A stretch of DNA of 64,000 nucleotides from Neisseria chenwenguii. GTDB taxonomy: Bacteria; Pseudomonadota; Gammaproteobacteria; Burkholderiales; Neisseriaceae. The notes under the pieces were generated by a model. That model was not told the DNA's origin, ran no database searches, and worked only from the letters and a program-made list of their open reading frames with translations. Below are positions 22,416 to 63,707 of the stretch, piece after piece. The translations under genes and the position numbers were made by a program. How positions within the stretch are numbered: position 1 is the stretch's first letter; the number at the start of each line of letters is the position of its first letter. Where the stretch lies: assembly GCF_002216145.1 (NCBI RefSeq), contig NZ_CP022278.1, positions 930,001 to 994,000 of the forward strand. Reading direction: 5' to 3'.

Positions 22416-22491
22416 GGGTCGTTAGCTCAGCCGGTAGAGCAGCGGACTTTTAATCCGTTGGTCGAAGGTTCGAATCCTTCACGACCCACCA
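22416..22491 (+). tRNA. tRNA-Lys (anticodon UUU)
   Basis: A 76-base tRNA with encoded CCA. The acceptor stem GGGTCGT pairs with ACGACCC; the anticodon loop is CTTTTAA (anticodon TTT), and the T arm is GGTTCGAATCC. The tRNA is intact. An integrase gene on the opposite strand ends inside it, so its 3' half is the likely attachment site of the element that follows. Confidence 0.97.
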
Positions 22492-23560
22492 GTTTTTCCA
22501 AGCCTAAACAAGCGTTTAGGCTTTTTTCTTTGCCACCTCCTATTTTGGGGTGTGCCTGATTTGTGCCGAAACCAAGACCGGCACCGTCCAATAATGCAGC
22601 ATGTTCGTGCAGATGTTCCGGTGCAAGATGGGCATACCGCTGCACCATACTGATGCTCTCCCATCCGCCCATCTCCTGCAACGCAGCCAACGGTACACCT
22701 GCCTGAACCAGCCAACTTGCCCAAGTATGGCGCAAGTCATGCCAGCGGAAATCGGATATGCCGGCTTTTTCCAAAGCATTTTTCCAAATGCGCGAACTGA
22801 TACTTTTCACCGGACGGCCGTTCGGATAGGTAAAAACAAAAGACGGGTGTTTCCCCATCTGTTTTTCCAATACGCCAAGTGCCGTCCGGTTGAGTGCAAT
22901 ACCGATTGCACGTCCGGCTTTGGCTTCGTCGGCATCAATCCAAGCCGTTTTCCGGCTCAGGTTTATTTGCGCCCACTTCAACTCCAAAACGTTCCGTTGC
23001 CTCAAACCCGTAGCCAAACTGAAAACCGCCATATCGGCTAGGTGCTCGGGCAAGGCGGCAATGAGATTCTGCGCTTCGTTCTGCGTCAGCCAGCGGATAC
23101 GCCGTTTGGCTTCGCGGTATAACGTGATTTTCGGTACATCGTCCAACCATTGCCACTCATGCGCGGCTTTGTTCAAAATGGCACGGATAAGCGCGAGATA
23201 ACGATTTTTAGTACTGTCGGAACAGGTCATACTGCCGACGGCCTGCATAATGAAATCACGGCTCATATCATGCAGCAAAATCCCTCGGAACTGGGACAGG
23301 CCGCGTAACCGGCTGATGTCGTCTTTGATGCTTTTCTTTTTGCCTCCCTGTTCCTTAATCCATCGGACGGCTGCTTCTTCCCACAGCCGTTCGGGCTTCT
23401 GCCCCAAATAATGCTGCTGCCACAGCTCATAGGCTAGTTTGTCATGCAGCCTTTGGGCTTCTTCACGGTTTTTAGTGCCAGCAGACTGTCGAATTCTGCG
23501 GCCGCTTTGCGTTGTGATGTCAACATACCATATGCCATTGTTTCGTTTGTAAATCGGCAT
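22427..23560 (-). CDS. int: Tyrosine recombinase (integrase) at tRNA-Lys
   Basis: A 377-residue phage/ICE-type integrase. An N-terminal Arm-like segment and SAM-like domain precede the catalytic domain: ATGLRQRNVLELKW (first Arg), HDLRHTWASWL (His-x-x-Arg) and GGWESISMVQRYAHL (nucleophile Tyr). The last about 20 codons are antisense to the tRNA-Lys and its terminator, so the true C-terminus would change when the element excises. The start lies 127 bases inside the preceding HTH gene. It ends the traL-traM-xis-int operon. Its location fixes the left edge of the element. Confidence 0.93.
   Translation of the reverse strand: MPIYKRNNGIWYVDITTQSGRRIRQSAGTKNREEAQRLHDKLAYELWQQHYLGQKPERLWEEAAVRWIKEQGGKKKSIKDDISRLRGLSQFRGILLHDMSRDFIMQAVGSMTCSDSTKNRYLALIRAILNKAAHEWQWLDDVPKITLYREAKRRIRWLTQNEAQNLIAALPEHLADMAVFSLATGLRQRNVLELKWAQINLSRKTAWIDADEAKAGRAIGIALNRTALGVLEKQMGKHPSFVFTYPNGRPVKSISSRIWKNALEKAGISDFRWHDLRHTWASWLVQAGVPLAALQEMGGWESISMVQRYAHLAPEHLHEHAALLDGAGLGFGTNQAHPKIGGGKEKSLNACLGLEKLVGREGFEPSTNGLKVRCSTG
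22500..22527 (+). terminator. Intrinsic terminator of tRNA-Lys
   Basis: AAGCCTAAAC / GTTTAGGCTT stem and T-run 8 bases after the CCA end. It lies within the integrase reading frame on the other strand. Confidence 0.8.
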
Positions 23561-43300: not shown

Positions 43301-45951
43301 AAAGCTCGCCTAAAAGCAAGCTGATTCCAACCCTGCAAGAAGAACGCGACCGTCTCGCTTTCTATATTCAAGCCATCAACAAGGAAGTTAAAGGTAAAAA
43401 ACCCAAAGGCAAAGAATACCTGCAAGCCAAGCTTTCTGCACAAAATATTGACTTGATTTCCGCACAAGGCATCGAAATCAGCGGTTCCGATATTACCGCT
43501 TCCAAAAAACTGAACCTTCACGCCGCAGGCGTATTGCCAAAGGCAGCAGATTCAGAGGCGGCTGCTATTCTGATTGACGGCATGACCGACCAATATGAAA
43601 TTGGCAAGCCCACCTACAAGAGCCACTACGACAAAGCTGCTCTGAACAAGCCTTCACGTTTGACCGGACGTACGGGGGTAAGTATCCATGCAGCTGCGGC
43701 ACTCGATGATGCGCGTATTATTATCGGTGCATCCGAAATCAAAGCTCCCTCAGGCAGCATAGACCTCAAAGCCCATAGTGATATTGTACTGGAGGCAGGA
43801 CAAAACGATGCCTATACCTTCTTAAAAACCAAAGGTAAAAGCGGCAAAATCATCAGAAAAACCAAGTTTACCAGTACCCGCGACCACCTGATTATGCCCG
43901 CCCCCGTCGAGCTGACCGCCAACGGTATCACGCTTCAGGCAGGCGGCAACATCGAAGCCAACACCACCCGCTTCAACGCCCCTGCAGGTAAAGTTACCCT
44001 GGTTGCAGGTGAAGAGCTGCAACTGCTGGCAGAAGAAGGCATCCACAAGCATGAGTTGGATGTCCAAAAAAGCCGCCGCTTTATCGGCATCAAGGTAGGC
44101 AAGAGCAATTACAGTAAAAACGAACTGAACGAAACCAAATTGCCTGTCCGCGTCGTCGCCCAAACTGCAGCCACCCGTTCAGGCTGGGATACCGTGCTCG
44201 AAGGTACCGAATTCAAAACCACGCTGGCCGGTGCGGACATTCAGGCAGGTGTAGGCGAAAAAGCCCGTGCCGATGCCAAAATCATTCTTAAAGGCATTGT
44301 GAACCGTATCCAGTCGGAAGAAAAATTAGAAACCAACTCAACCGTATGGCAGAAACAGGCCGGACGCGGCAGCACTATCGAAACGCTGAAACTGCCCAGC
44401 TTCGAAAGCCCTACTCCGCCCAAACTGACCGCCCCCGGCGGCTACATTGTAGACATTCCCAAAGGCAATCTGAAAACCGAAATCGAAAAGCTGGCCAAAC
44501 AGCCCGAATACGCCTACCTGAAACAGCTTCAGACGGCCAAGAACGTCGATTGGAAACAGGTGCAGCTTGTCTACGACAAGTGGGACTATAAAGCCGAAGG
44601 CCTGACCGGAGCCGGAGCCGCCATTATCGCCCTGGCAGTAGCGGCAGCAACCGGAGGCGTCGGTGCCGGTTTGATCGGTGTAGCACAGGGAACCACATCT
44701 GCCGCCATAGCCAATGCAGCATTTACCTCGCTGGCTACCCAAGCTTCCATTTCGCTGGTTAATAACAAAGGCAACGTCGGCAAAACCCTGAAAGAACTGG
44801 GCAGAAGCCGTACGGTGAAAAATCTGGTCGTGGCTGCTGCCACCGCAGGCGTATCCAACAAAATCGGCACGTCTGCTTTAGCCAATGTCAGCGACAAGCA
44901 GTGGGTCAACAACATGACCGTCAACCTGGCCGACGCAGGCAGTGCCGCGCTGATTAACACCGCCGTTAACGGCGGCAGCCTGAAAGACAATCTGGAAGCG
45001 AACATCCTTGCGGCATTGGTCAATACCGCGCATGGAGAGGCGGCCAGTAAGATCAAAGGGCTGGATCAGCACTATGTCGCGCATAAGATTGCCCATGCCG
45101 TAGCGGGTTGTGCGGCAGCGGCGGCCAATAAGGGTAAGTGTCAGGACGGTGCGATCGGTGCGGCCGTGGGGGAGATTGTCGGGGAGGCTTTGGTTAAGAA
45201 TACCGATTTTAGTGGGATGACAGCTTCTGAAATTGAAAAAACCAAAGCGCAAATTACAGCCTATGCGAAGCTGGTCGCAGGAACAACAGTGGGTATTACC
45301 GGAGGGAATGTTGATGTTGCGGCGAATGCTGCCGAAACTTCCGTTAAAAATAATGCTTTGGATATTATTTGGGATATTGGTAATCTGATATGGGATGGAG
45401 GAAAATGGATTTACGCCAAATCTATCGGTAATGAACAAATGGCACAGGAAGCCGCTATTGATTTTGGTGTGGATGCGGCAACGGCAGTTGTTCCGTTTGC
45501 CCCTGCAGGAATGACAAAGATCGGGAGAGGTGGGGCTTATGTTTTAAAGACCGGCGATGAAGTCGTAGATTCTGCAAAAGCCGTACAGGAGATTCAGAAG
45601 CAGACCGGAATCAAGCTGACCTATGATAAGGTAAATAAGGTTTGGACGACGCCAGCAGGGTTGGATTATGGTCTTCATCGGAAAGATGGAAACCGAATCA
45701 AACATGTTTTGAAGCATACCGTGCCTAATCCAAATAAACGTTTACATACGGTTTTTAACGTATCAAAAAAAGAAGTACTTCCATTGATTGATGAAGCATG
45801 GAAAAAGAAAGGTGCTCCTTTGCCTAATGATCCAGCTGCATACGTGGTAGATATGGGAAGAGTAATTGGTACAAATGGGGAAACTAAAATACGTATTGCT
45901 ATCGAAGCGAAAGGAAGCAATAGAATTGCTTCTGCATATCCTCAAAAATAA
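40357..45951 (+). CDS. tpsA: Two-partner secretion exoprotein (TpsA/CdiA-like) with C-terminal toxin
   Basis: An 1864-residue secreted filamentous-hemagglutinin-type protein. The ESPR extended signal (MNKGLYRTVFSKKHGTMVAV) leads to cleavage near IVLPAHAQ (residue 73). The TPS domain has the hallmark IIANPNGITVNGGGF. A long beta-helical repeat region follows, with a coiled-coil insertion around residue 970 (NQKSKELEQQIAQLKKSS). Near the C-terminus come DUF637-like sequence (ALINTAVNGGSLKDNLEANI) and a VENN-like junction (ETSVKNNA). The last about 170 residues form a variable toxin: RIKHVLKHTVPNPNKRLHTV and GETKIRIAIEAKGSNRIASA, reminiscent of BECR-fold RNase toxins. The putative immunity gene follows directly. 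SD AAAGGGA. Confidence 0.92.
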   Translation: MNKGLYRTVFSKKHGTMVAVAETTNSQGKGKQAGTSAPASPQISDGLYGKLKTTLKTLVCSLVSVSIVLPAHAQIITDKTAPKNQQAVILKTNTGAPLVNIQTPNAKGLSHNRYTQFDVDAKGAVLNNDRNNNPFLAKGSAQLILNEVRGVASKLNGILTVGGQKADVIIANPNGITVNGGGFKNVGRGILTTGTPQIGKDGALTGFDVRQGVVTVGQAGWNDKGGADYTEVLARAVALQGKLQGKNLAVSTGAQKVDYASGEISAGTAAGTKPAVALDTAALGGMYADSITLIANEKGVGVKNAGTLEAAKQLIVTSSGRIENTGRIATTADSTEASPTYLSIETTEKGSGNAFISDGGKVESKGLLVIETGEDIGLRNGAVVQNNGSRPAATVLNAGRNLVIESKANVNNAKGSTNLSAGGRTVIKDAGIQTGTTIYSSSKGNAELGNNTRITGADVTVLSNGTISSSAVIDAKDTTHIEAGKPLSLEASTVTSDIRLNGGSIKGGKQLALLADDNITAKTTNLNTPGNLYVHTGKDLNLNVDKDLSAASIHLKSDNAANITGSGKTLTVSKDIGVQAGSLNVSNTNLRTNSGNLHIQAAKGNIQLRNTKLDAGQNLDAAALQGNIVSDGLHAVSADGHVSLLANGNADFTGHNTLTAKADVNAGSVGKGRLKADNTNITSSSGDITLVAGNGIQLGDGKQRNSINGKHISIKNNGGNADLKNLNVHAKSGALNIHSDRALSIENTKLESTHNTHLNAQHERVTLNQVDAYAHRHLSITGSQIWQNDKLPSANKLVANGVLALNARYSQIADNTTLRAGAINLTAGTALVKRGNINWSTVSTKTLEDNAELKPLAGRLNIEAGSGTLTIEPANRISAHTDLSIKTGGKLLLSAKGGNAGAPSAQVSSLEAKGNIRLVTGETDLRGSKITAGKNLVVATTKGKLNIEAVNNSFSNYFPTQKAAELNQKSKELEQQIAQLKKSSPKSKLIPTLQEERDRLAFYIQAINKEVKGKKPKGKEYLQAKLSAQNIDLISAQGIEISGSDITASKKLNLHAAGVLPKAADSEAAAILIDGMTDQYEIGKPTYKSHYDKAALNKPSRLTGRTGVSIHAAAALDDARIIIGASEIKAPSGSIDLKAHSDIVLEAGQNDAYTFLKTKGKSGKIIRKTKFTSTRDHLIMPAPVELTANGITLQAGGNIEANTTRFNAPAGKVTLVAGEELQLLAEEGIHKHELDVQKSRRFIGIKVGKSNYSKNELNETKLPVRVVAQTAATRSGWDTVLEGTEFKTTLAGADIQAGVGEKARADAKIILKGIVNRIQSEEKLETNSTVWQKQAGRGSTIETLKLPSFESPTPPKLTAPGGYIVDIPKGNLKTEIEKLAKQPEYAYLKQLQTAKNVDWKQVQLVYDKWDYKAEGLTGAGAAIIALAVAAATGGVGAGLIGVAQGTTSAAIANAAFTSLATQASISLVNNKGNVGKTLKELGRSRTVKNLVVAAATAGVSNKIGTSALANVSDKQWVNNMTVNLADAGSAALINTAVNGGSLKDNLEANILAALVNTAHGEAASKIKGLDQHYVAHKIAHAVAGCAAAAANKGKCQDGAIGAAVGEIVGEALVKNTDFSGMTASEIEKTKAQITAYAKLVAGTTVGITGGNVDVAANAAETSVKNNALDIIWDIGNLIWDGGKWIYAKSIGNEQMAQEAAIDFGVDAATAVVPFAPAGMTKIGRGGAYVLKTGDEVVDSAKAVQEIQKQTGIKLTYDKVNKVWTTPAGLDYGLHRKDGNRIKHVLKHTVPNPNKRLHTVFNVSKKEVLPLIDEAWKKKGAPLPNDPAAYVVDMGRVIGTNGETKIRIAIEAKGSNRIASAYPQK

Positions 45952-47058: not shown

Positions 47059-47994
47059 ATGGGATTCAATATGATGGCTACAAAAAAATGGTATGAGCAT
47101 ATTACTAATGTAATCATAGGTAACACTACTAATTTTAATAACGGTTGCCCCGATTCTATAGATTATATAGATGAAAAAAAAGGCATTCCGTTTGCCGCGA
47201 TGAAATATATTTTAATGTACACTGATGCTGCAGCATCTCATTCCTATCTATTTGAGCATGATCTTAAGAAATTCAAACAATATGCTTATGTTTCAGGGAA
47301 GCTGGGTATTTTGCGGAGTGTAGATTCTAAATACCCTGAACCCTTCTTCTTTCCATGCGATATGCTCAATATACAGAATCCAATGTTCCTGATGCTGATG
47401 AGCGATAGTCCGCAGATTCGCGAATTTTTGATACGTAATATCGACCATATTGCCAACGACACCGAGGATTTTGTTGACCGCTACGACCTTAACCGTCATA
47501 TGATTTACAACACGCTGCTGATGGTGGAAGGTACGCAGCTCGAGCGGCTTAAGCAACGCAGCTTAAAGGTGCTCGAATATCCCGCGCCGAACAAGTGGCT
47601 GCAAAAGCGGCTGTATGACTACCGTTTCTTTCTGGCTTTTGCAGAGCAGGATCCGGAAGCGATGAAAGCTGCTTTGAATCCGCTGTTTGATAAGAAAACG
47701 GCGCGTATGGCCGCCAAAGAAACATTGAGCTATTTTGATTTCTACCTCCAGCCACAAATCGTTACCTATGCCAAAATCGCCTCCATGCACGGTTTTGATT
47801 TGGGCATAGACCACGAAATCGCGCCTAGGGAACTGATCATTTACGATCCGCTGCCGGCTGATGAATACCAAGACATCTTCGACTTTATGAAACAGTATGT
47901 CTTGTCTTACCCGTATGAATATCTTCAGGACTGGGTGGATTACTATACGTTCAAAACCGATGAGCTGGTATTCGGTAAAGCAGCGCGCGGATAA
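47059..47994 (+). CDS. Putative immunity protein (Imm49-like) of the orphan cassette
   Basis: A 311-residue soluble helical protein starting MGFNMMATKKWYEHITNVII after AAGGAGATAAC. Late motifs include PAPNKWLQKRLYDYRFFLAF and the PFxFP-type and DWVDYY segments. Length and style recall the Imm49 family of polymorphic-toxin immunity proteins; the family call is tentative. It stays intact although the toxin in front is broken, as expected if it still protects against sibling toxins. Confidence 0.6.
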   Translation: MGFNMMATKKWYEHITNVIIGNTTNFNNGCPDSIDYIDEKKGIPFAAMKYILMYTDAAASHSYLFEHDLKKFKQYAYVSGKLGILRSVDSKYPEPFFFPCDMLNIQNPMFLMLMSDSPQIREFLIRNIDHIANDTEDFVDRYDLNRHMIYNTLLMVEGTQLERLKQRSLKVLEYPAPNKWLQKRLYDYRFFLAFAEQDPEAMKAALNPLFDKKTARMAAKETLSYFDFYLQPQIVTYAKIASMHGFDLGIDHEIAPRELIIYDPLPADEYQDIFDFMKQYVLSYPYEYLQDWVDYYTFKTDELVFGKAARG

Positions 47995-48086
47995 AGTATG
48001 CTTGTCTAGAAAATTTCAGACAGGTACGCAGGGGGGAAGCAATCGTTACCCGTAATTTCTACTTAAAAATCTGAATTGAAATCATA

Positions 48087-48121
48087 AGGCCGTCTGAAAA
48101 TCGAAATCCTTCAGACGGCCT
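48087..48121 (+). terminator. DUS-pair hairpin closing the toxin-immunity region
   Basis: Inverted DUS pair followed by TTTTTG. Confidence 0.8.
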
Positions 48122-49735
48122 TTTTGGGACGAGCAAACATAAAGCAAGACAAGTACAACAAAAAATGCAGTTATGCCATTTTTTCGGCTCTAAAATTTAC
48201 CCAAATATATCTAGTATTTCTGACGGGAAAGTTATCAATGGATATTTCTCATCTTGACATGGAACTTTTATTTTTATATTTACTCAAACAATTGCATTCT
48301 GCCGTTAACCATAATGCAATCTATGCCCAAAACGCAAGATATGGCTTTTTTTAATCTGGCCTTACTTTTAAAAGGCTCATTACATTCCACATTAAAATCG
48401 GTATGCCAAAGCCTAGAACACACTTATGGCTGCCGAGCGTTCTATTTTAATGCAATGTAATAAATTTTAAATCTACCTAGGTTTTGATAAATCTTGAAGT
48501 CCTGTCATGATTTAATCATCTCTCTTTAGTGCTTACGCAAAATTATCAGATTTGACTGATTCTTTTATTATATAACTAGCAATGTATTCATTACATTTTA
48601 TTAAGGAAGGCTATCTGCATAAAACAGATAGCCTTTTATGCTACTCCCTTTTGTCTATCTCACGAAATGGCAGAAATTCAATTTATGCCAAATGTCTGAT
48701 ACAAAACAAGCCTCGGAAAGACACTCTTTGGTCACTCAGTAAGAGTAGGATGGGCACTTGCTGCCCCGCAATTTACTATGACTTTCTATATTTATCAAAT
48801 GTAAATGCCATCTGAACAACCCTAATTTTCAGATGCTACAGTGTCTGTTCTTGAAAGGAATTGATGATTAAAAGTCCAGCATTGGAAAATAGGGAGATAT
48901 CGTGTATGACAATAGAGAAATCATGTAGATGGGTAATACTGCGATGCAGCCATTAACAGCAACTATCTACCCGTACTTTTACACAGACTTCGGCATACGC
49001 CGAAATCCAAAATACGCCCTACAAATAAAGATAGAGCCAACTGCTCTAATAATTCAAACAGCAGTTATTTTTCCGGATGTCGAGTAGGATAATAATACCG
49101 ATGCGCAGTTCTGCTACAGTTACTGCCGATAGATACAGCGTTTCAAAGGATTTCCGTCCAACCATACTGTTACGAGATTCTGTGGCAGTGGGTGCAGCGG
49201 TTTGGAAATCACATTGGTATCAAGTAGAAACATCAAAGCTAAACCTTCTGCTCTATTTTTCTTTTAACATCGAAGTGAATTCCGCCGATTTCACAATTTA
49301 TATTAAACAGGAAAGAACCGCAATAGACGCGGCACAGCGGTTGTACTGCCTAGCCCAAAATCAGCTGATTTTCCGTTTCGGTACTACAACTGCATCTTGT
49401 GTTTTGATGGAGTAAAGAGTTTCACCCGACAGTTTTTTTAAGTAATAGATGGCATAGGATACTCCTTTTTCGGTGTCTGTTGTGTAATGCTGCCAGTTTT
49501 AAAATAAAAGCAAAACCGACTGTCTGAAAATTTCAAGGAACCACAAACAAAAAATCTCACAGCACATGAATTAGTTCCACTGCAAGGCTTTTGGGGTAAT
49601 AAATATCTAGCTTTCTTAGAAAATCTTTATATACAATTAGCATTCATTCTTATAGCCACTAGAGCACTGTCAGTTCCTTACTTTTAATTCTGGGCATATT
49701 GAAAGAACATTATTTTTGAGAATGAACACCCATGT
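48122..49735. other. 1.6 kb AT-rich region without a supported gene
   Basis: Contains only short frames on the plus strand (48238-48354, 48254-48460, 48582-48815, 49077-49415) lacking good ribosome sites or recognisable domains; the first two look like one frame broken by a frameshift. It also holds an intrinsic terminator at 48606-48634 and a degenerate DUS near 48788-48835. Probably decayed cargo between two functional blocks. Confidence 0.45.
48606..48634. terminator. Intrinsic hairpin in the decayed region
   Basis: AAGGCTATCTG / CAGATAGCCTT stem with a 7-base loop and T-rich flank. Confidence 0.65.
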
Positions 49736-50824
49736 TCAGATTCCTATAGTTTCTATATCGATATCGGGCTGCCCCTGTCTGGCATAGTAGGATGAAAATC
49801 TTGAAATTATATCCTTTAAAAAAGGAGCTGAAATTTGTATTGCTGGGGTATCAAATGAAGTGTTAATTTCTTCTTCAGTATGCGTAGAAACTCTCCGAAA
49901 ATTAATTACTCCGCCAGAGTAAAATTCAGTTTTCGGTAACCAATGGTAATAAAGTGACTTATTATTTTTATAAGTTTTTTCCAGTTCTTTTTTATTCTTG
50001 TTAGAAAGAGTGTCCCAAGTAAAATCTGGATAAATCTCTTTTAAAGATTGTATCTCAACTAAAAGCGCACGATCAGTATTACAACGACCAGTATCTCGTT
50101 CTGCCAAATCACAAGCTGGATTCATTACAATGAAATATCTTTCATGGCTCTTTTGTTTAAGAATACTGCCTGTATTAATTCGGTTATTTATCGGAGGGGA
50201 TATGTACATTTCTTCAGGATAGCAAAGATTAATATCATTATCTAAATGTTGAAGTAGATGATTCAAGGTATATCTTAGCAAGGCTTTTTCTGTCCTAGTA
50301 TCATCAGATTCTGCATATTTAATCCAACTTCTCTTACCAGAAGGACTATTCGTCAGAGCCGGCAGGAGATTTTTTATGAATATGGTTGTAAGCTTCTGCT
50401 CAATTAAGCCTTTTCCTCCAAGGATTCTAGTCAGTCCAGTACGATAAATACTCTGGAATTGATCTATTATCTCACGATATTGGATATCCCCTTTTTTACA
50501 TATATCAATCAATGGAAATTCATTTTGTTCGGCAACATCTGGGGTTCCTGTCATAATCACAACAGGGATACGATTAAGACTTTCCTTAATTTGTTGTATA
50601 ACCTGATTTCCTTCATCTGGTTCTGAACTGGTAAGTTTCATATCAATAATCACACCATCAAAGTCTGATTCATTCAATCTTTTCTCAGCTTCGGTAACAT
50701 TTCCACAAACTTCTAGGTCAACTCTAAATGTGGAATTATCTTCATTAAAATCGGCTACCGCACTTTGGCAGAGTTGTTGATCCGCCTCATTATCTTCAAC
50801 TAAAAGCAATTTCATATTATTCAT
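49736..50824 (-). CDS. Response regulator with unknown C-terminal domain
   Basis: A 362-residue protein. Residues 1-120 are a complete receiver: acidic pocket LLLVEDNEADQ, phospho-acceptor Asp in DGVIIDMKLTSSEP, Thr in VVIMTGTPD and Lys in DICKKGDI. The remaining about 240 residues have no DNA-binding motif I recognise; RYFIVMNPACDLAERDTGRC and NTDRALLVEIQSL stand out and may form an enzymatic or sensor domain. Third gene of the methyltransferase-GHKL operon, overlapping the GHKL gene end; alternative start at 50815. It may be the effector. Confidence 0.85.
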   Translation of the reverse strand: MNNMKLLLVEDNEADQQLCQSAVADFNEDNSTFRVDLEVCGNVTEAEKRLNESDFDGVIIDMKLTSSEPDEGNQVIQQIKESLNRIPVVIMTGTPDVAEQNEFPLIDICKKGDIQYREIIDQFQSIYRTGLTRILGGKGLIEQKLTTIFIKNLLPALTNSPSGKRSWIKYAESDDTRTEKALLRYTLNHLLQHLDNDINLCYPEEMYISPPINNRINTGSILKQKSHERYFIVMNPACDLAERDTGRCNTDRALLVEIQSLKEIYPDFTWDTLSNKNKKELEKTYKNNKSLYYHWLPKTEFYSGGVINFRRVSTHTEEEINTSFDTPAIQISAPFLKDIISRFSSYYARQGQPDIDIETIGI

Positions 50825-52985
50825 TAGTTATATCCTTCATCTGTAATCTGAAATAAGCTCCTGTACTAGACTGCAATGCAGCAAGTTTCAGACCGTTTCG
50901 CTCTGCAGCCTCCCCAGCAATAGCTAATCCAATACCAGTTCCTGATGGTTTTGTACTGAATTGCGGTTCAAAAATTACACCATCTTCAATCAGAACTGAG
51001 TCAATTCCAGGACCGGTATCACGAAAATCAACGTAGATCAGATTGTTATTTTCTGATTCTATATTCACTAGGATTCTTCTATCCTCTATTGAGGATCTTT
51101 CTTTCAGCCAGAATATACTGTTGTCAATCAGATTAGCAAAAATAGCCTGGATATCCTGCTGCCAGGTTAAAAAAGTCAAATCATCATTACCATTTATCTC
51201 AACCTGAATTTTGTTATCCTCCATATCTTGGCGGAATACATCAAAACATCCCTGAATTTCCTGTTTGATTCTTAATTCTTTAGGAGAGGTGCTTCTACCT
51301 GATGCTAAAGGATCCAATCGTTTAAACAGTTCAGAAAATGCTGCAGCATTTGATTCAACACCTTTGGCAATAGCAGCTATTTCATCGATATTCTTTTTAT
51401 CCCCAGTTTCCAACAATTTTTTCTGAAATCTGCTGATACGTGGTACCTCATTACGGAAGTAGTTTAGTGGTCTTCGGCCTTCATGCATGACAACTGTAAT
51501 GATTTTCCCCAATGTAGCCTGCCCCTGATAAGTGGCTACTGCACGACTAATTTCTTCAGCACTTTTTTCCTTACTCGTTTCCTCATTAGTAATTAATGTA
51601 ATGACTTCATCCGCCGCCTGCTCTTTCATGCCCTGACTAATTAGCTTTTTTCGTATTTGTTTTTTCAGCCCATCCAAGGAAAAAAGCTTCTCCAGTTCTT
51701 TTTCCACTTTAAGCGAGGATTTACTCAGACCAACCTTTCTTCTGTAACTGAACCTGCGCTCTTCAAGCTTACCAATCACTTCTTTTGTAATTTCTTTTAG
51801 CCGTTCATAAGACAAATTTTCCTGTAAGCCATCTCGGGCACTTTTTTCAATCAGGTTAGATTGTTCTTCAGATTGAATAAGTACATAGCCGATAACTTGG
51901 TTACTACCAATCCGCATAGAAGGGTTTTGAATACGCTGTTCATTTAACTTAAGCCAGTCAAACTCTGCATCGCCCAGAGGACGAATCCTGAATCCATTAC
52001 GATAAACACCTATGCCGTTGGATACATTGAGCAAATGAGCAGCCTGTCGTTTACCTACATAATTACCTGCTTCATCTCTTAAACCTCGTTGAATTAGCCT
52101 TTCTATTGATTCAGAATCTCGGTCATAAACCCGTATATCAAAAATCAAGTCACCACAAACGGTATCACGTCCAAGGTCTATGGTTATTTCCTCGTCAATA
52201 GTATTTTTTGCCTTTTGGAGAGAGTAAATGAATTTCCCCTTTCCGTCAGATGTAATTTTTCCTGTAATTTTATAATCAAACAGTTCAAAAATAGGATAAG
52301 ATTCAATTAGTTCGTTAACGTCAGGAATATCGGAGAAACCAGATATAATCAATCGGATTTCAAAGTTTTTATATTCTTCATTAATAATACTTTCTGCAGG
52401 AGTTGGGGAAATTAATTTTTTTAATTCAAACCTAAGTTTGTCAAATTGCTTCTTATTCCATTCTTCATAATTTGACGAATTTCCCTTTATTGTTAATGTT
52501 GTCCCTGAGTGTTCTTCAGAATGCTGATTCTCTACCAGAATTTCAACATCATCTAGATATTCTGAATGCTCAAAACTACTCCATTCAACAAAAACAATTG
52601 TTTTTTCACCAGTCTTGTCTACTGTTTCTAGTAAAAGATTTTCTCCGAGAACGGAAGCTGCATAACGTCCTATCCCTTTTCTTCCCTGCATAATTCGTCC
52701 AGCCGGACTGATTTTACGCTCAAGCTTATCCTTAGTGGACGGAACCATCCACTTATTGATTACCGTCTCCCGAGACATACCGTGACCCTGATCTTCAATA
52801 GTGATCTCATATTGCTTAAGGTCATCTTCTGCAGTGAACTTTATTACTACACAAGGAGAATCAGCGTCATACGCATTTTTTACCAACTCCACAACTGCAG
52901 CATAATTATCCTGTATAAGATCTCGACCGATTGTCAATAAATGTCGTCCAGCTGGTCTTATTTTGTATACTCCATTACTACTCAT
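50817..52985 (-). CDS. Dual GHKL ATPase: MORC/Hsp90-like N-terminus and histidine-kinase-like C-terminus
   Basis: A 722-residue protein starting MSSNGVYKIRPAGRHLLTIG at 52985; AAGGAG lies 8 bases upstream and the ATG overlaps the methyltransferase stop. The N-terminal ATPase has N-box ELVKNAYDADS, G1 IEDQGHGMSRE and G2 GRKGIGRYAASVLGE, as in MutL/Hsp90/MORC. A middle domain and a coiled coil lead to a second ATPase: H-box-like VVMHEGRRPLNYFRNEV (candidate phospho-His), N-box IFANLIDNSIFWL, G1 FRDTGPGID and G2 SGTGIGLAIAG. So it may be a sensor kinase with a built-in MORC-like clamp, signalling to the adjacent response regulator. Confidence 0.88.
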   Translation of the reverse strand: MSSNGVYKIRPAGRHLLTIGRDLIQDNYAAVVELVKNAYDADSPCVVIKFTAEDDLKQYEITIEDQGHGMSRETVINKWMVPSTKDKLERKISPAGRIMQGRKGIGRYAASVLGENLLLETVDKTGEKTIVFVEWSSFEHSEYLDDVEILVENQHSEEHSGTTLTIKGNSSNYEEWNKKQFDKLRFELKKLISPTPAESIINEEYKNFEIRLIISGFSDIPDVNELIESYPIFELFDYKITGKITSDGKGKFIYSLQKAKNTIDEEITIDLGRDTVCGDLIFDIRVYDRDSESIERLIQRGLRDEAGNYVGKRQAAHLLNVSNGIGVYRNGFRIRPLGDAEFDWLKLNEQRIQNPSMRIGSNQVIGYVLIQSEEQSNLIEKSARDGLQENLSYERLKEITKEVIGKLEERRFSYRRKVGLSKSSLKVEKELEKLFSLDGLKKQIRKKLISQGMKEQAADEVITLITNEETSKEKSAEEISRAVATYQGQATLGKIITVVMHEGRRPLNYFRNEVPRISRFQKKLLETGDKKNIDEIAAIAKGVESNAAAFSELFKRLDPLASGRSTSPKELRIKQEIQGCFDVFRQDMEDNKIQVEINGNDDLTFLTWQQDIQAIFANLIDNSIFWLKERSSIEDRRILVNIESENNNLIYVDFRDTGPGIDSVLIEDGVIFEPQFSTKPSGTGIGLAIAGEAAERNGLKLAALQSSTGAYFRLQMKDITNE

Positions 52986-54244
52986 ATCCATTTCTCCTTA
53001 AGCTTCTCGGCAATTTTTCTGGCCAATAGCACAGGAACCGCATTACCTATCTGCCGAAAAGCTGCAGCACGGCTTGGCTTTTCGGTGGCTCCTTCAAAAA
53101 AATAATCATCCGGAAAAGTTTGTAGTCTGGCTGCTTCTCTTGGGGTAATTGATCGGTTTTGTTTTATGTCGGGATGAATATAATAATGACCATCCTTTGA
53201 TAAATGAGCCAGTACAGTATGTGCAGCCGGTAAATCTGCAGCAACAACTTTAAACCTATCAACAAATGCAGTCCTGTTAGTATGGGTTTTTAAGTATTCG
53301 GGAAGCTCATCATATTCTAGTCGTTTTTTCTCTGTTATCCAAAGTTCAACAGCTTTTCTGTATATTTCCAGATCTCGCTTATTGTTAAAGCGGGCAGTAT
53401 GCCACGTTACAGGAAAACGGTTATTTTTAATGCCTGAATCATAAAGCCATTTCCCTTTGTAATTTTTTATATTACACGCCCGAATGTTTCCTTCACCGGC
53501 TTGCAAAGGGGGAAGATCATCAAATATCTCACTGACAGTCACTTTCGGATTCCAGATATCTGGTTCAGGATAAAAATCTGACTTTGCAGTTCTGCAGCCA
53601 ACTAGAATAATGCGTTTTCTGGCCTGCAACACCCCATAATTACTTGCATCAAGTATGCGATGCTCAGTTGCATATCCTGCTTCTTTAAATAGCCTACGCA
53701 TTTCATCAAAATACAACCGACCGCTTTGGTCTTTTGCAGACAGCAAACCCGTTACATTTTCAAAGATAAAGAATTTGGGTTTATAACGCCTCAAAAATTC
53801 AACATAGAAGATGTAAAGATAGTTTCGTTTATCTCCAATCATTTTATTAGCATCACACGCTCTACCAACTAAGGAGTAAGCTTGGCATGGTGGCCCTCCA
53901 ACAATCAAATCAAGAGTCTTATTTTTTAGTAAACCATCAATGGTAAGAAAAATATCCTCTAAAGATTCCTCAGATATTTCCCTATTGATTACCGATCTCA
54001 TAATTTCATTAGGAACAGAAGCATAAAAGTTATTCCTATTTATTTTTCCTGTCAGATAATCTTCATAGATACTTTCCTGTTGATTGGATTTTAGCCAGTG
54101 ATATGCTGAACGAGTGCGAAGAGTAAAACAAGCTGCTTTATCAGATTCTATATGAGCAATAGGCTCAAATCCAGCTTGAATAAAGCCTTCTGACAAACCT
54201 CCGGCTCCCGAAAACAAATCAAGAAAATATCGTTTTTTTAACAT
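52982..54244 (-). CDS. DNA (cytosine-5) methyltransferase
   Basis: A 420-residue C5-MTase with all key motifs: FLDLFSGAGGLSEGFIQAGF (I), GGPPCQAYSLVGR (IV, catalytic Cys), FIFENVTGLLS (VI), GVLQARKRIILVG (VIII), and RQIGNAVPVLLARKIA (X). The region between motifs VIII and IX is the target-recognition domain, so specificity cannot be read. First gene of a three-gene operon with the GHKL ATPase and response regulator. AT-rich relative to neighbours, indicating horizontal acquisition. No recognisable restriction endonuclease adjacent. Confidence 0.95.
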   Translation of the reverse strand: MLKKRYFLDLFSGAGGLSEGFIQAGFEPIAHIESDKAACFTLRTRSAYHWLKSNQQESIYEDYLTGKINRNNFYASVPNEIMRSVINREISEESLEDIFLTIDGLLKNKTLDLIVGGPPCQAYSLVGRACDANKMIGDKRNYLYIFYVEFLRRYKPKFFIFENVTGLLSAKDQSGRLYFDEMRRLFKEAGYATEHRILDASNYGVLQARKRIILVGCRTAKSDFYPEPDIWNPKVTVSEIFDDLPPLQAGEGNIRACNIKNYKGKWLYDSGIKNNRFPVTWHTARFNNKRDLEIYRKAVELWITEKKRLEYDELPEYLKTHTNRTAFVDRFKVVAADLPAAHTVLAHLSKDGHYYIHPDIKQNRSITPREAARLQTFPDDYFFEGATEKPSRAAAFRQIGNAVPVLLARKIAEKLKEKWI

Positions 54245-54620: not shown

Positions 54621-55766
54621 TCAGCGGTCGATGCCGTCGTCCCGCTGCGGACGGTAAACCGTTTCGGGTGCCGGTTGCGGTTTCGATACCGCCGCCGTCA
54701 TAACGGGCGGCTGTACCGGTTTCGTGTTTTGCGGATCGCGGGCGGCGGCTTCCACCGCTTTTCCGTACCGCTCAAATTCGGACGGATGGGCGGCGTAGTA
54801 GTCGTAAGCCTGTTGCGCCTTGGTCTCGAACGGTTGCGATGCGGTTTCTTTCGCCAGTTTGCTTACCAGACGGGCTTCCGTTTTATGCCCCATTTTGTAG
54901 AGTTCTTTGGCGATTTGTCCGTATTCTTCCAAGACCGCGCCGCGCGAGTGCAGGACTTTTTGCAGATAAGGGTGTGTCGGCCGCTCTCCCTGTCCGACGG
55001 CGGCAACCAGTTCCTGCGCGTGCTTCAGGGCGGTGTTGCTCCATTTGCCGCGTTCGCATATCGCTTTCACGGTGCTTTTTTCGGGTTTCTGCACGATGCC
55101 CCTGTGTACGCGCTTGGTGGCGGCGCACTCCACGCCTTCTTCGCGCAGCTTTTCGGCAAAGCGAACCCGCCACTCGAACAGGTCGTTTTTGCGCGGGTTG
55201 AGCCGCTGTCCCGTTTCGTCCCGCATCAGCACGCACAGGTGGACGTGGGGGTGTTCGGGTTCGCCCGGTTTTTCCGATTCATGATGTAGCGCAAAAACGT
55301 ATTGGTGGCCTTCAAACTGTTCTTCGGCAAATTTGCGGGCGGCGTTGAGGACGGCCTGCGGCGGCGTGCCTGCGGGCATCGACAGCACCACGTTTAGGGC
55401 TTCTTTGTGTTTGGATTCTTCGGTAATGCCCAGTTTCTTCCAGTCGTTGACCATTTGGTGCACGGCTTTTTTACCGTTCAGCTTTTCGCCGTCCTGCGTC
55501 TCGATTTGGATTTTGCCGTTGCGGGAAATGTAGTCGAGGTGGTTGCGTACCCCGCGCATTCCCTTCGAGCCGCCGCTGACGCGTTTCGGGATTTTGACCA
55601 TCACTTCGGGATGTTTCTTGGCGGCAGCGGTCAGATTAGTGACACCGCTGCCGGGTTTTAACGGTTTGGACGGTCTGCCTTTGCCGAAATAGACGGCTCC
55701 TTGGTTTTTGGCTTTGACGGCACGGGTTTTGTAACCCAAAAACCAGTCGTCGGTTTTTCTGCTCAT
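54621..55766 (-). CDS. Relaxase / mobilization nuclease (MOBP-like)
   Basis: A 381-residue relaxase that would nick oriT and lead DNA into the recipient. The start is ATG 55766 (MSRKTDDWFLGYKTRAVKAK) with AGGAG 9 bases upstream; the frame opens 6 codons earlier. It shows the motif I region RNHLDYISRNGK with a candidate catalytic Tyr, and the three-His metal motif EHPHVHLCVLMRD. Preceded by the MobC-like gene, as usual. The C-terminal tail is proline-rich. Confidence 0.88.
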   Translation of the reverse strand: MSRKTDDWFLGYKTRAVKAKNQGAVYFGKGRPSKPLKPGSGVTNLTAAAKKHPEVMVKIPKRVSGGSKGMRGVRNHLDYISRNGKIQIETQDGEKLNGKKAVHQMVNDWKKLGITEESKHKEALNVVLSMPAGTPPQAVLNAARKFAEEQFEGHQYVFALHHESEKPGEPEHPHVHLCVLMRDETGQRLNPRKNDLFEWRVRFAEKLREEGVECAATKRVHRGIVQKPEKSTVKAICERGKWSNTALKHAQELVAAVGQGERPTHPYLQKVLHSRGAVLEEYGQIAKELYKMGHKTEARLVSKLAKETASQPFETKAQQAYDYYAAHPSEFERYGKAVEAAARDPQNTKPVQPPVMTAAVSKPQPAPETVYRPQRDDGIDR

Positions 55767-55794
55767 GGCGGTTTGCTCCTGCATTCAAACAAAC

Positions 55795-61688: not shown

Positions 61689-63707
61689 CTAGGCGGCCGC
61701 CACGGTATCTGATGTGTCTTTCAGTATCTTGGCGATAAAGTCCAGACTGCCGCTGCCCCAGTTTTGCGCGATTACCGGCACCAGTTGGGCGACGTAATCC
61801 GGCGGGCTGCCCGGCGGGATGAGGACACTCAGCAGCGAACGGGCGATGTCTTCCGCATTGGACGCATCTGCCCAATGGAAGCTGTCTAACGCTTCCGGTG
61901 GTACAAATTCAGCTTTCGGTATCGCTGCACTTACCTTATTCACTGTACGAACATCCAAAGGCGGAATCACCGGCAGCGGCCGGTTGGCGCGTTTGCTGAA
62001 AACCGGGTCTTGGTAATACACGATTTTTTGCGCGTAAACCGGCCGGCTGTTGCCCAAACTGATGATGCAGTCGCTTTTGGGCATCATCTTGAGTTCGTCC
62101 GGATTCATCACCGCCCTGCGCTGGTCGCTGGTACTGGTGCTGCGGCTGCCGAGTTTGCCCGCCGAACGTGAAACCGATTTGGCTTTGTAGGTCTCGTAGC
62201 CTATCAGCTTGCTGTACTCCTCCGCGTCGGTCTGTTCGCGCGGCGGATAAACGATTTGGCAAGCGAAATTGGTGAAGAAGGTGCGCGTCGCGTCACGCCC
62301 GTACAAATCGGTAACTTGGGACGGCGTTTGGATAATCAGCAGCAGCCGCAAGCCGTAACCGGCGATGTAGGACACGCCGTGCTGAATCGCCGGTATTACG
62401 CCCAAAGCGGTAAATTCATCCATCAGCAGGCAGCATTGGTATTTCAGACTGTCGGGATTGTTGGACGGCAAACCCTGCTGCACGTTTACCGAAACCAATT
62501 GGCTGAAAAACAGGTTGGTCAGCCGTGAAAAAACCGCCGTTTCCGTTGGTACGATTCCGATATAAACCGTCATCCGCTTTTTGCGTACTTCATCGAGATA
62601 GAAATCGTCGCCGCTGGTGGCCGCTTCTACCACGGGGTCGATGAAGATACCCAAAGGGGCGGTCAGCGTGGCCAAAATATCGGCACCGGTCTTGGCGTTG
62701 CCGTTGGCAAAGCCCATCAGCAGGGTGCGGCAGTTTTGGCTCAAGCGTGTCTGCGGTTGTTGGTCACGCAGCATGACCTCGTCTTTAATCCATTCGGCCA
62801 ACGTGTGGCCGTCTGAAGGTGTGGTGAGGCGGAACAGATTGGCCAACGTGGTTTTGTTTTCCTGAAGAGAAAGATCGCGCTCGTTTTCGGTTTCAATCAT
62901 GTAAAGCAGCAAACCGGCAAACAGGTTTTGCGCCGATTCCTGAAAGAAAGTCGCGCTGCCGCTGTCTTTGACCGGTTTCGGATACATGATGGCGGCAATG
63001 TCTTTCACGTCTTTGTAGGTGTAAACCGGATTGCGGCGGATATAGGTGCAGGGATTCCAGCGGTGCGACACCAAAGGCGCATTGGGATTACGCTCATGCT
63101 CAGGCATACGGCCGGCCGGATTGAACAGAAACACTTCTTGACCGTGTTCTGCACGGTAGCCGCCGCTAATGAGGAAATTTTCCAGTTTCGGGTCGAAAAC
63201 GACCATGCTGTCGCGGTAGTGCAGGCAGTTGGGAATCACAATGCCCACACCTTTGCCCGAACGGGTCGGTGCAGCCAGATACAGAAACTCGTTTCCTACC
63301 CAGCGCAGATAATCATTACCGTATTTACCGATCAGTAAATCCGGTTCTTCATCGCCCTGAAACTTCTTTTTCAAAAGGCCGTGTTTGGCGATTTCCGAAC
63401 GTTTGGCAAACCGCGCAGAGCCGTGCAGTTCGCGCTTGGGCTTCATCAGCACCGCCGCACAAATGATGACTGCCGTCACAGCCGGAATCAGCAGCGCAAT
63501 AAAGGCCGATACCTCAAAGGCCGTCTGAGCACCCGGCTTCAAACGGTCGTAATAGTGCCAGTAGCGGTACAGCATACCGACGGACGGCTCCGCTTTCAGG
63601 CTCAGCCATGTTGTCATGACGGTACTGCCCAAATACAGACCACCGGCCAAGCCGAACGGCACGAAGATACCCAGTGCGGCCAGCAGACCGAAAAACTTGT
63701 TTTTCAT
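61689..63707 (-). CDS. traG: Type IV coupling protein (VirD4/TraG family)
   Basis: A 672-residue inner-membrane ATPase that brings the relaxosome to the mating channel. Two N-terminal membrane segments (about residues 7-30 and 65-88), Walker A APTRSGKGVGIVIPN near residue 150, then VVFDPKLENF, Walker B CCLLMDEFTALGVI, and the late IIQTPSQVTDLYG motif of the family. Complete and full length. Follows the SSB gene on the minus strand. Confidence 0.95.
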   Translation of the reverse strand: MKNKFFGLLAALGIFVPFGLAGGLYLGSTVMTTWLSLKAEPSVGMLYRYWHYYDRLKPGAQTAFEVSAFIALLIPAVTAVIICAAVLMKPKRELHGSARFAKRSEIAKHGLLKKKFQGDEEPDLLIGKYGNDYLRWVGNEFLYLAAPTRSGKGVGIVIPNCLHYRDSMVVFDPKLENFLISGGYRAEHGQEVFLFNPAGRMPEHERNPNAPLVSHRWNPCTYIRRNPVYTYKDVKDIAAIMYPKPVKDSGSATFFQESAQNLFAGLLLYMIETENERDLSLQENKTTLANLFRLTTPSDGHTLAEWIKDEVMLRDQQPQTRLSQNCRTLLMGFANGNAKTGADILATLTAPLGIFIDPVVEAATSGDDFYLDEVRKKRMTVYIGIVPTETAVFSRLTNLFFSQLVSVNVQQGLPSNNPDSLKYQCCLLMDEFTALGVIPAIQHGVSYIAGYGLRLLLIIQTPSQVTDLYGRDATRTFFTNFACQIVYPPREQTDAEEYSKLIGYETYKAKSVSRSAGKLGSRSTSTSDQRRAVMNPDELKMMPKSDCIISLGNSRPVYAQKIVYYQDPVFSKRANRPLPVIPPLDVRTVNKVSAAIPKAEFVPPEALDSFHWADASNAEDIARSLLSVLIPPGSPPDYVAQLVPVIAQNWGSGSLDFIAKILKDTSDTVAAA

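Follow-up and report, generated by a model that had tools for sequence, protein, structure and literature searches.

A methyltransferase, GHKL ATPase-histidine kinase and response regulator block in a conjugative element of Neisseria chenwenguii: a candidate phosphorelay-run defence cassette

The window analysed here is a stretch of 64,000 nucleotides of Neisseria chenwenguii (contig NZ_CP022278.1, positions 930,001 to 994,000). On its reverse strand, genes for a C5-cytosine DNA methyltransferase, a paraMORC-like GHKL ATPase fused to a histidine kinase and a response regulator follow one another and overlap (Table 1). The first-pass annotation, made from the sequence alone, had described the three genes as coupled by overlaps of 4 and 8 bases. 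The 8-base overlap stands, whereas the other measures 10 bases with the longest reading frames and 4 only if the kinase starts at Met3, as its 722-aa homologues do. Homologue searches returned 1461 proteins for the regulator and at least 2548 for the kinase (8000 candidates scored), and the best 120 homologues of each span 97-100% of the query, indicating that both frames are real genes. Within the block, scans for promoters and terminators yielded nothing above chance level. The methyltransferase is complete, as had been proposed: beside its Pfam match, the motifs DLFSGAGG, GGPPCQAYS, ENV, QARKR and RQIGNAVP are readable in its sequence, and it matches M.HaeIII (4.2e-29) and the PADLOC model DrmMII (2.9e-169).

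Table 1. Coordinates of the three-gene block, its domains and predicted key residues, and genes and sites of the surrounding element (positions in the window)
Feature	Position	Strand	Evidence
Attachment-site repeat, 3' half of tRNA-Lys	22444..22492	+	copy at L093:11544-11592, 45/49 bases alike, 53.1 kb away
Tyrosine integrase of element	22427..23560	-	Pfam PF00589 3e-35
Response regulator, 362 aa	49736..50824	-	ORF, Pfam, homologues
Conserved output domain CD-RxG, residues ~165-356, candidate effector	49757..50332	-	alignments and profile comparisons
R349-x-G351 of output domain	49772..49780	-	R and G in 17/17 sequences
C238-D239 of output domain	50108..50113	-	C in 17/17, D in 15/17 sequences
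D61, predicted phospho-accepting Asp of receiver	50642..50644	-	identical across 84 and across 17 aligned sequences
paraMORC-like GHKL ATPase fused to histidine kinase, 724 aa (722 aa from Met3)	50817..52991	-	ORF, Pfam, homologues
C-terminal histidine-kinase GHKL domain, residues 612-718	50838..51158	-	Pfam PF02518 2.7e-17
H503, predicted phospho-accepting His of HEGRRPL H-box	51483..51485	-	28-sequence alignment
N-terminal MORC/MutL-like GHKL domain, residues 31-146	52554..52901	-	Pfam PF13589 1.6e-18
C5-cytosine DNA methyltransferase, 420 aa	52982..54244	-	ORF and Pfam PF00145 4.6e-61
MobP-type relaxase, next gene upstream of methyltransferase	54621..55784	-	PF03432 3e-10; NF041450 MobP1 1.7e-31 (below model's cut-off)
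Type IV coupling protein of element	61689..63707	-	PF02534 2.7e-92

The block had been taken for AT-rich cargo of a conjugative element, and this was confirmed. The surrounding ICE, about 53 kb long and lying at tRNA-Lys, has an integrase, a relaxase, a coupling protein, VirB-like genes and an attachment-site repeat; GC content is 36-38% at about 48-54 kb of the window, compared with 42-52% between 23 and 47 kb and 50-55% between 54 and 64 kb. Pfam identified three of the four flanking genes as encoding the relaxase, a MobC-like protein and Imm49, and gave no identification for a 569-aa ORF. Relatives occur in 65 predicted viral loci; L024 directly adjoins two tail genes, and L019 and L021 have phage genes within ~5 kb. 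Phage records gave three matches to the kinase and one to a regulator of type T2, and none to the window's regulator. At the DNA level, E. coli genomes gave no kinase match; of the sister type, two records contain fragments no longer than 109 bases.

The kinase carries two separate GHKL modules in one protein, as the first-pass annotation had recognised. The N-terminal module matches HtpG (4e-5) and MORC3 (9e-4) chains as well as the NF050001 model of BbrUII/HgiDII restriction enzymes (2.2e-14, residues 22-169, below the model's cut-off), and the C-terminal module matches ZraS and other kinases. Across 28 aligned kinase sequences, the N-terminal GHKL motifs and the N, G1, F and G2 boxes are kept, invariant or nearly so, and H503, E504, G505, R506 and P508 of the canonical H-box (H503-E-G-R-R-P-L) are invariant. 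K383 in EKSARDGL, a candidate for the conserved basic residue of the paraMORC/MORC S5 domain, is invariant in the same 28 sequences. The receiver retains E10/D11, D61, T92 and K111 and matches PF00072 over residues 7-98 (1.1e-6; 29.2 bits, just under the 30.2 cut-off). All 84 aligned regulator homologues match this family at E up to 5, and the next commonest family, among the 25 of 60 Pfam families listed, is matched by 7/84. Both residues of the predicted His-Asp phosphotransfer from H503 to D61 are conserved.

The C-terminus of the regulator had been left without an assigned family, and Pfam indeed gives nothing credible past residue 100; neither a Pfam scan of the 84 regulators nor a PDB sequence search yielded a credible relative of this part. 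Alignment nevertheless revealed a conserved output domain, new here, with a near-invariant C-D and R-x-G, which we call CD-RxG. The 17-sequence alignment behind the counts in Table 1 leaves out L004 and L021. All 25 sequences compared from other types, among them standalone proteins, keep C and D. L021 has a T1-like regulator with C-L for C-D and without the R of R-x-G, which we count against a reading of the block as a defence cassette. For one comparison, sequences were cut by script at the C; the cuts of L016 and L044 missed the motif and L021 was left out. The same C, D and R also occur in standalone proteins, of which the one of L083 has no Pfam domain and no informative name among the best 120 of its 923 homologues. 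The standalone CD protein matched diverse T1 regulators at 8.6e-5 as a single sequence and at 1.2e-4 as a 120-sequence profile. Its family matched A1 (the alignment of 84 regulator homologues) at 0.087, T2 at 0.4 and T3 at 0.21, and an unrelated Vsr control profile reached 0.003 against this family; the profile link to the regulators is weak. Prompted by the strand order and a block resembling LDQIRTLD, a MazF/PemK fold was considered for the output domain but not supported, the match not being significant: against 24 PemK-family (PF02452) proteins local p values were 0.058 for T1, 0.44 for T2, 0.035 for T3 and 0.13 for A1, the global p for T1 was 0.014, and the standalone family gave p 0.16, with five unrelated control profiles at 0.27-0.39. 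No cognate endonuclease, the partner expected of a type II system, was recognised in the three proteins by Pfam, PADLOC or NF models, and restriction-enzyme models align to the kinase GHKL only, in agreement with the first-pass annotation. Since no nuclease is recognisable, the CD-RxG output domain is the best candidate effector, and it may itself be a nuclease that escapes recognition.

Among 75 distinct HK loci, a DNA methyltransferase lies beside 33/37 with a CD-RxG output and 11/38 with other or unseen outputs (Fisher 9.7e-8), a grouping that was not blind, being made after methylase matches had been seen, with methylase profiles seeded mostly from the same loci. By hand count, 25/27 clusters with CD-RxG have a methylase, whereas the p of 5.9e-8 was computed with 26/27; the L019/L020 cluster was first scored methylase-positive, and the methylase of L020 lies 5.8 kb away. 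The 38 other loci include five without a visible regulator (L020, L026, L036, L049 and L073) and three with an N4-type methylase whose regulators may carry CD-RxG: that of L080 matches the T3 profile (1.3e-6), the likeness of L056 and L081 was judged by eye, and all three were kept in this group because the likeness was noticed only after the methylase count. Two observations count against the defence reading: a C5-methylase is also near 6/33 other loci with a visible regulator, so the link is not exclusive, and L005 (an Enterobacter mori plasmid) and L043 keep the HK-RR pair with no methylase nearby, so a methylase is no absolute requirement. While the output domain stays, the class of methylase changes, being C5 in two types and N4/N6 in the third (an overlapping N6_N4 methylase accompanies 5/5 T3 regulators). 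The window methylase shares 62% identity with a methylase accompanied by a kinase and a regulator that are just 27% and 17% identical to those of the window; judged by these identities, two unlike kinase-receiver types have methylases of a single lineage. One kinase backbone in turn bears several unlike outputs, as expected of sensor-effector immunity.

Conservation of the three-gene order, on which the first-pass proposal depended, was found across phyla. Methylase, kinase and regulator follow in this order in Neisseria (L083), Rodentibacter (L003), Hymenobacter (L006) and loci L018, L028, L085 and L091, and the methylase is flipped in Campylobacter (L007, L131, L132) and Fusobacterium (L130). 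A reciprocal test in 370 genomes placed 3/3 close methylases beside HK-RR and 6/6 HK beside a C5-methylase. Regular pairing of the methylase with an ordinary nuclease was not observed: 18 neighbourhoods read by eye contained no recurrent nuclease gene and few other restriction-type genes. Vsr genes adjoin 8/18 T1 and 5/14 T2 loci, which is compatible with methylation upkeep as much as with defence.

Loci of this kind are not new. HATPase_c_3 plus kinase proteins paired with receiver-like proteins beside C5-methylases were described in 2021 as HEF_HK (PF19191) and Response_reg_2 (PF19192), with speculation on a regulatory role (PMC8011034). Common to both are HATPase_c_3, a phospho-His region, a HATPase_c kinase, an adjacent receiver and a C5-methylase, which lies upstream, often with Vsr near, as here in relatives. 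The CD-RxG output, found in other receiver types too, is likewise shared: three PF19192 proteins that we fetched end in a similar domain (hhalign 3.3e-6 to T1, 1.7e-4 to T3 and 0.005 to T2, rough single-pair values, given the 0.003 that the unrelated Vsr control reached). CD-RxG is thus combined with the published PF19192 type and with three kinase-receiver types here, for which methylase neighbours were read. The window proteins differ in having a receiver that matches PF00072 and an H-box of sequence HEGRRPL; the fetched PF19192 proteins are 555-617 aa long and their kinases 316-438 aa. Pfam found neither PF19191 in the window kinase nor PF19192 in its receiver at E up to 1, and PF19192 has no match in the window's own genome. 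Membership was therefore rejected, which makes the window locus a separate branch.

Other known systems share single parts. BbrUII/HgiDII GHKL-containing restriction enzymes lie beside a C5-methylase. Their N-terminal GHKL is related, but the match to NF050001 ends at residue 169 of the window protein, the remainder of which is kinase. DISARM class 2 was suggested by the DrmMII match and rejected, no partner genes being recognised beside the methylase (no DrmA, DrmB or DrmC by PADLOC in kinase and regulator or by Pfam in the four flanking genes). Detocs is known chiefly for an ATP-cleaving PNP effector, and its three genes encode a kinase, a receiver-only protein and a receiver-effector (PNP or other); we know of no methylase in it. 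The present block has one receiver gene, a methylase and no PNP domain by Pfam, and so was not assigned to Detocs. Detocs, a defensive two-component system with a glossary entry in PMC11249213, does resemble it in having a sensor kinase and a regulator with an effector domain, there serving phage defence. In GHKL-type Shedu/paraMORC3, an N-terminal GHKL ATPase is the presumed controller of a fused DUF4263 nuclease effector (PMC12137116); the window proteins lack DUF4263 by Pfam and were excluded from this group. paraMORC/MORC operons (PMC2292703) have in common an N-terminal GHKL clamp with intact motifs and a link to C5-methylase and Vsr, but their partners are helicases or nucleases, in whose place a histidine kinase stands here; that paper mentions neither 'receiver' nor 'response regulator'.

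How might the block work? It could be a regulatory two-component system in which the regulator answers a DNA or nucleotide signal by adjusting how strongly the methylase and nearby RM genes are expressed or how active their products are. We consider this unlikely: no DNA-binding family recurs in the Pfam matches of the 84 regulators (among the 25 of 60 families listed), the 18 neighbourhoods offer few other restriction-type genes to control, and an output that is kept through changes of methylase class would be odd for a promoter-specific regulator. A far slimmer prospect is that a solitary methylase merely hitch-hikes beside the kinase and regulator, or that a restriction system has lost its nuclease here. 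C5-methylases are common on mobile elements, and two viral-contig methylases of 50% identity lack a neighbouring HK (L128, and L129, whose contig ends ~700 bases past the methylase), but the overlapping genes, the order recurring across phyla, the three close methylases of the 370 genomes all adjoining HK-RR and the lack of a recurrent nuclease in the 18 neighbourhoods read by eye argue against it.

The output could also be a growth-arresting toxin that is checked by the methylated state and that stabilises the ICE or aborts infection, leaving invader DNA uncut. The ICE, plasmid and viral-contig settings of the relatives, the standalone proteins with their weak profile link and the colinear, if weak, placement of MazF/PemK on the domain by hhalign would fit such a module; against it stand the lack of significance of that match, the absence of any antitoxin-like partner seen and the pairs of L005 and L043 that persist without a methylase nearby. 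It too seems improbable to us.

The reading to which we give an even chance is a mobile restriction-modification-like defence cassette with a restriction arm run by a His-Asp phosphorelay. The methyltransferase would mark resident DNA, and the soluble paraMORC-kinase would detect unmarked or otherwise abnormal DNA via its N-terminal GHKL clamp. ATP-driven dimerisation would lead to autophosphorylation at H503, and the phosphate would pass to D61 of the regulator, releasing or dimerising the CD-RxG effector, which might then attack invader nucleic acid or shut the cell down. The two-component-controlled defence system of the first-pass annotation is thereby supported in part: gene content, intact motifs, co-conservation and the link between output domain and methyltransferase are established here, together with the exchange of both methylase class and kinase-receiver type and the mobile and viral-contig settings, and from sequence we infer DNA sensing, phosphotransfer, effector activity and a role in defence. 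Against defence we also count that PADLOC matches to the kinase and regulator are weak overall, with only PDC-M60B and PDC-M60C on the receiver. The locus probably serves phage defence, with a phosphate signal in place of the usual DNA-cutting enzyme. The wider proposition, restriction-modification without a restriction enzyme, in which a MORC-like clamp reads DNA as self or non-self, a His-Asp relay carries the signal and CD-RxG is a new effector working with C5 or N4/N6 methylases across phyla, is plausible at somewhat less than an even chance.

A nuclease that itself reads the methylation mark is generally regarded as essential to restriction-modification, and Detocs is, to our knowledge, the one system with two-component signalling in phage defence. 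If our reading is true, a phosphorelay that links the reading of the mark to killing would give restriction a new logic, and what was speculation in 2021 would become a system that can be put to the test, its effector domain defined. Such cassettes could account for some C5-methylases that seem solitary on mobile elements, and what MORC ATPases sense could be studied in them as a simple bacterial model.

ORF reading and Pfam upheld the first-pass annotation of three minus-strand genes, encoding a C5-cytosine methyltransferase (MT), a dual-GHKL histidine kinase (HK) and a response regulator (RR), in the window (G000:C1:930001-994000, part of a 2.50-Mb genome). Both ATP-binding motif sets and the H-box HEGRRPL are kept across aligned HK homologues, H503 being invariant in 28 sequences, and aligned RR homologues keep D11, D61, T92 and K111. 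A recognisable nuclease is found in none of the three genes, as previously claimed. The block is AT-rich (GC 36-38%, compared with 42-52% in the left flank and 50-55% in the right), and the roughly 1.7 kb downstream of RR are also AT-rich without a convincing gene.

Coordinates of the cassette genes and other features
Feature	Location	Strand	Description	Basis
MT	window 52982-54244	minus	C5-cytosine methyltransferase	ORF reading, Pfam
HK	window 50817-52991	minus	724 aa; HATPase_c_3 N-terminal, HATPase_c C-terminal	ORF reading, Pfam
RR	window 49736-50824	minus	response regulator, 362 aa	ORF reading, Pfam
AT-rich stretch	window 47994-49736
Imm49	window 47059-47994		immunity gene
TpsA-like	window 40357-45951		1864 aa, large partner ORF of transporter	named by eye
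ShlB/FhaC-type	window 38445-40205		transporter
TIGR04255 set	L083:14693-16438		TIGR04255 gene, small ORF, standalone 207-aa CD-motif protein
DUF4365	L018:13810-14781		adjoins cassette
DUF4365	L034:14194-15231		adjoins cassette

A tyrosine integrase adjoins tRNA-Lys, the 3' half of which is repeated 53.1 kb away (49-base repeat, 45/49 alike), directly behind a VirB-like gene set (Pfam confirmed 4/4 ORFs searched). Since a relaxase, a coupling protein and a MobC-like protein (below Pfam's cut-off) are also present, the element is an integrative conjugative element (ICE), and with the GC profile this bears out the proposal that the cassette is AT-rich conjugative cargo. The same ICE carries a contact-dependent-inhibition-like set of transporter, TpsA-like ORF and Imm49.

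HK was found, own genome included, in 3/83 genomes of the family at 1e-30 (one of them with 30% identity), 6/370 class genomes at 1e-40 and, by profile, 5/397 phylum genomes at 1e-60; its distribution is therefore patchy. Homologues were collected from 80 loci (2 genome contigs, 3 plasmids, 65 viral contigs and 10 genome stretches), of which 5 duplicates were removed. The remaining 75 were grouped by the protein after HK into window-type regulators (T1, n=18), two further types (T2, n=14, about 450 aa; T3, n=5) and others (n=38, five without a visible regulator). The kinase match falls in two or three pieces in Campylobacter plasmids CP120242-CP120313, where frameshifting, phase variation or mis-assembly may account for this; in Spirabiliibacterium (L004) the kinase ORF is split in two at the contig end and the regulator ORF is complete. 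DUF4365 genes adjoin two cassettes.

The RR C-terminus had been described as of unknown kind. No known fold was found by sequence search, with nothing credible in the PDB, but a conserved domain is present. In an alignment of the window and 16 of the 18 T1 loci (excluding L004 and L021), R184, E205, Y207, T218-G219, P236, C238, R349, G351 and P353 are common to 17/17 regulators, H189 to 16/17 and D239 to 15/17. The L021 regulator has C-L for C-D and lacks the R before the last G. Profile comparison matched T2 (1.8e-10) and T3 (9.3e-14) to the C-terminus of the diverse T1 set, more weakly when an alignment of close RR homologues was used instead (2.6e-4 and 8.5e-6), and the match of further types T4-T6 was confined to the receiver. 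A MazF/PemK fold was unsupported by profile comparison. Over four types, the most conserved residues are C-D and R-x-G, with R and G in 31/31 and D in 29/31 sequences (script-cut at C, two cuts wrong); we call the domain CD-RxG. C, D and R are also kept in standalone proteins with a weak profile link to the regulators, such as one adjoining a TIGR04255 gene in L083; this protein has 923 homologues, and no Pfam domain occurs among the best 120. In five loci (L046, L054, L055, L064, L072) and relatives, the receivers that come after this GHKL-kinase backbone have very different C-termini, some Cys-rich, which are possibly further effector types; PADLOC gave no match at E up to 0.1 for the regulators of L046, L054, L055 and L072.

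There is a C5-methylase no more than 4 kb away in 15/18 T1, 13/14 T2, 0/5 T3 and 8/38 other loci, and all five T3 loci instead have an overlapping N6_N4 methylase (Pfam PF01555), whose profile matches three more among the others. Any DNA methylase is present in 33/37 CD-RxG loci (T1-T3) versus 11/38 others (Fisher 9.7e-8), in a grouping made with methylase matches already on view and a C5 profile seeded mostly from counted loci. The four methylase-less loci comprise two with cut flanks (L004, L019) and two real absences (L005, L043). Vsr is nearby in 8/18 T1 and 5/14 T2 loci, and the methylase is convergent in three loci outside the count (L130, Fusobacterium; L131 and L132, Campylobacter). 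In the reverse test, a close methylase (1e-80) occurred in 3 of the same 370 genomes and adjoined HK-RR in 3/3. Two viral-contig methylases at 50% identity without adjoining HK (L128; L129, whose contig ends soon after) count against the association. Apart from these two and the real absences, counts and reverse test agree with co-conservation of the genes. Five viral-contig loci (L032, L034, L062, L066, L069) with an N4/N6-methylase overlapping the GHKL-kinase, and a CD-RxG regulator, form a parallel system of the other methylase class.

The regulator is the most divergent of the three proteins in 11/11 comparisons with the window, as may often be seen in conflict proteins. Identities for methylase, kinase and regulator are 53%, 53% and 37% with L091, and 62%, 27% and 17% with L024, a locus next to two tail genes in a predicted viral contig. 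The L024 values indicate that this methylase has become associated with two dissimilar kinase-receiver pairs, which share the same kind of output domain.

Kinases with HATPase_c_3, HEF_HK and HATPase_c domains adjoin Response_reg_2 proteins, said to lack other known domains, with 91.6% linkage in 644 regions, and C5-methylases and Vsr around these pairs led to a proposal of two-component-like control of restriction-modification (PMC8011034, 2021). Window HK and RR match neither PF19191 nor PF19192 in Pfam. The C-terminus of PF19192 proteins joins the diverse T1 output (3.3e-6), T3 (1.7e-4) and T2 (0.005). ParaMORCs were defined in PMC2292703 (2008), where the words receiver and response regulator are absent, and a figure legend in PMC13092281 names HATPase and REC among predicted-system domains without detail. 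The common output domain and methylase-class swap are not described in the covered parts of PMC8011034 or PMC2292703, and no experimental study of the three-gene set was found in a search mainly of open-access literature. The PADLOC DrmMII model scores the window methylase at 2.9e-169 with no DISARM partners recognised alongside, so DISARM calls resting on DrmMII alone may mislead.

How might the cassette act? Because the CD-RxG domain accompanies DNA methylases of both classes, we take it to be a candidate effector and the GHKL-kinase a putative sensor that would signal to it. On binding ATP, clamps of the MORC and MutL kind close around DNA, which by analogy makes DNA sensing by the kinase plausible. 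Alternatively, RR could regulate transcription; this is less likely, since a Pfam scan of 84 regulators yielded no recurrent DNA-binding family among 25 of the 60 families matched. By eye, the cassettes L003, L083 and L091 are flanked by seemingly unrelated genes. If the sensor-effector reading is right, the cassette would represent restriction run by phosphorelay. The cassette is a real, conserved and mobile system; its kind was first reported in 2021, and its branch falls outside the Pfam models of that year.
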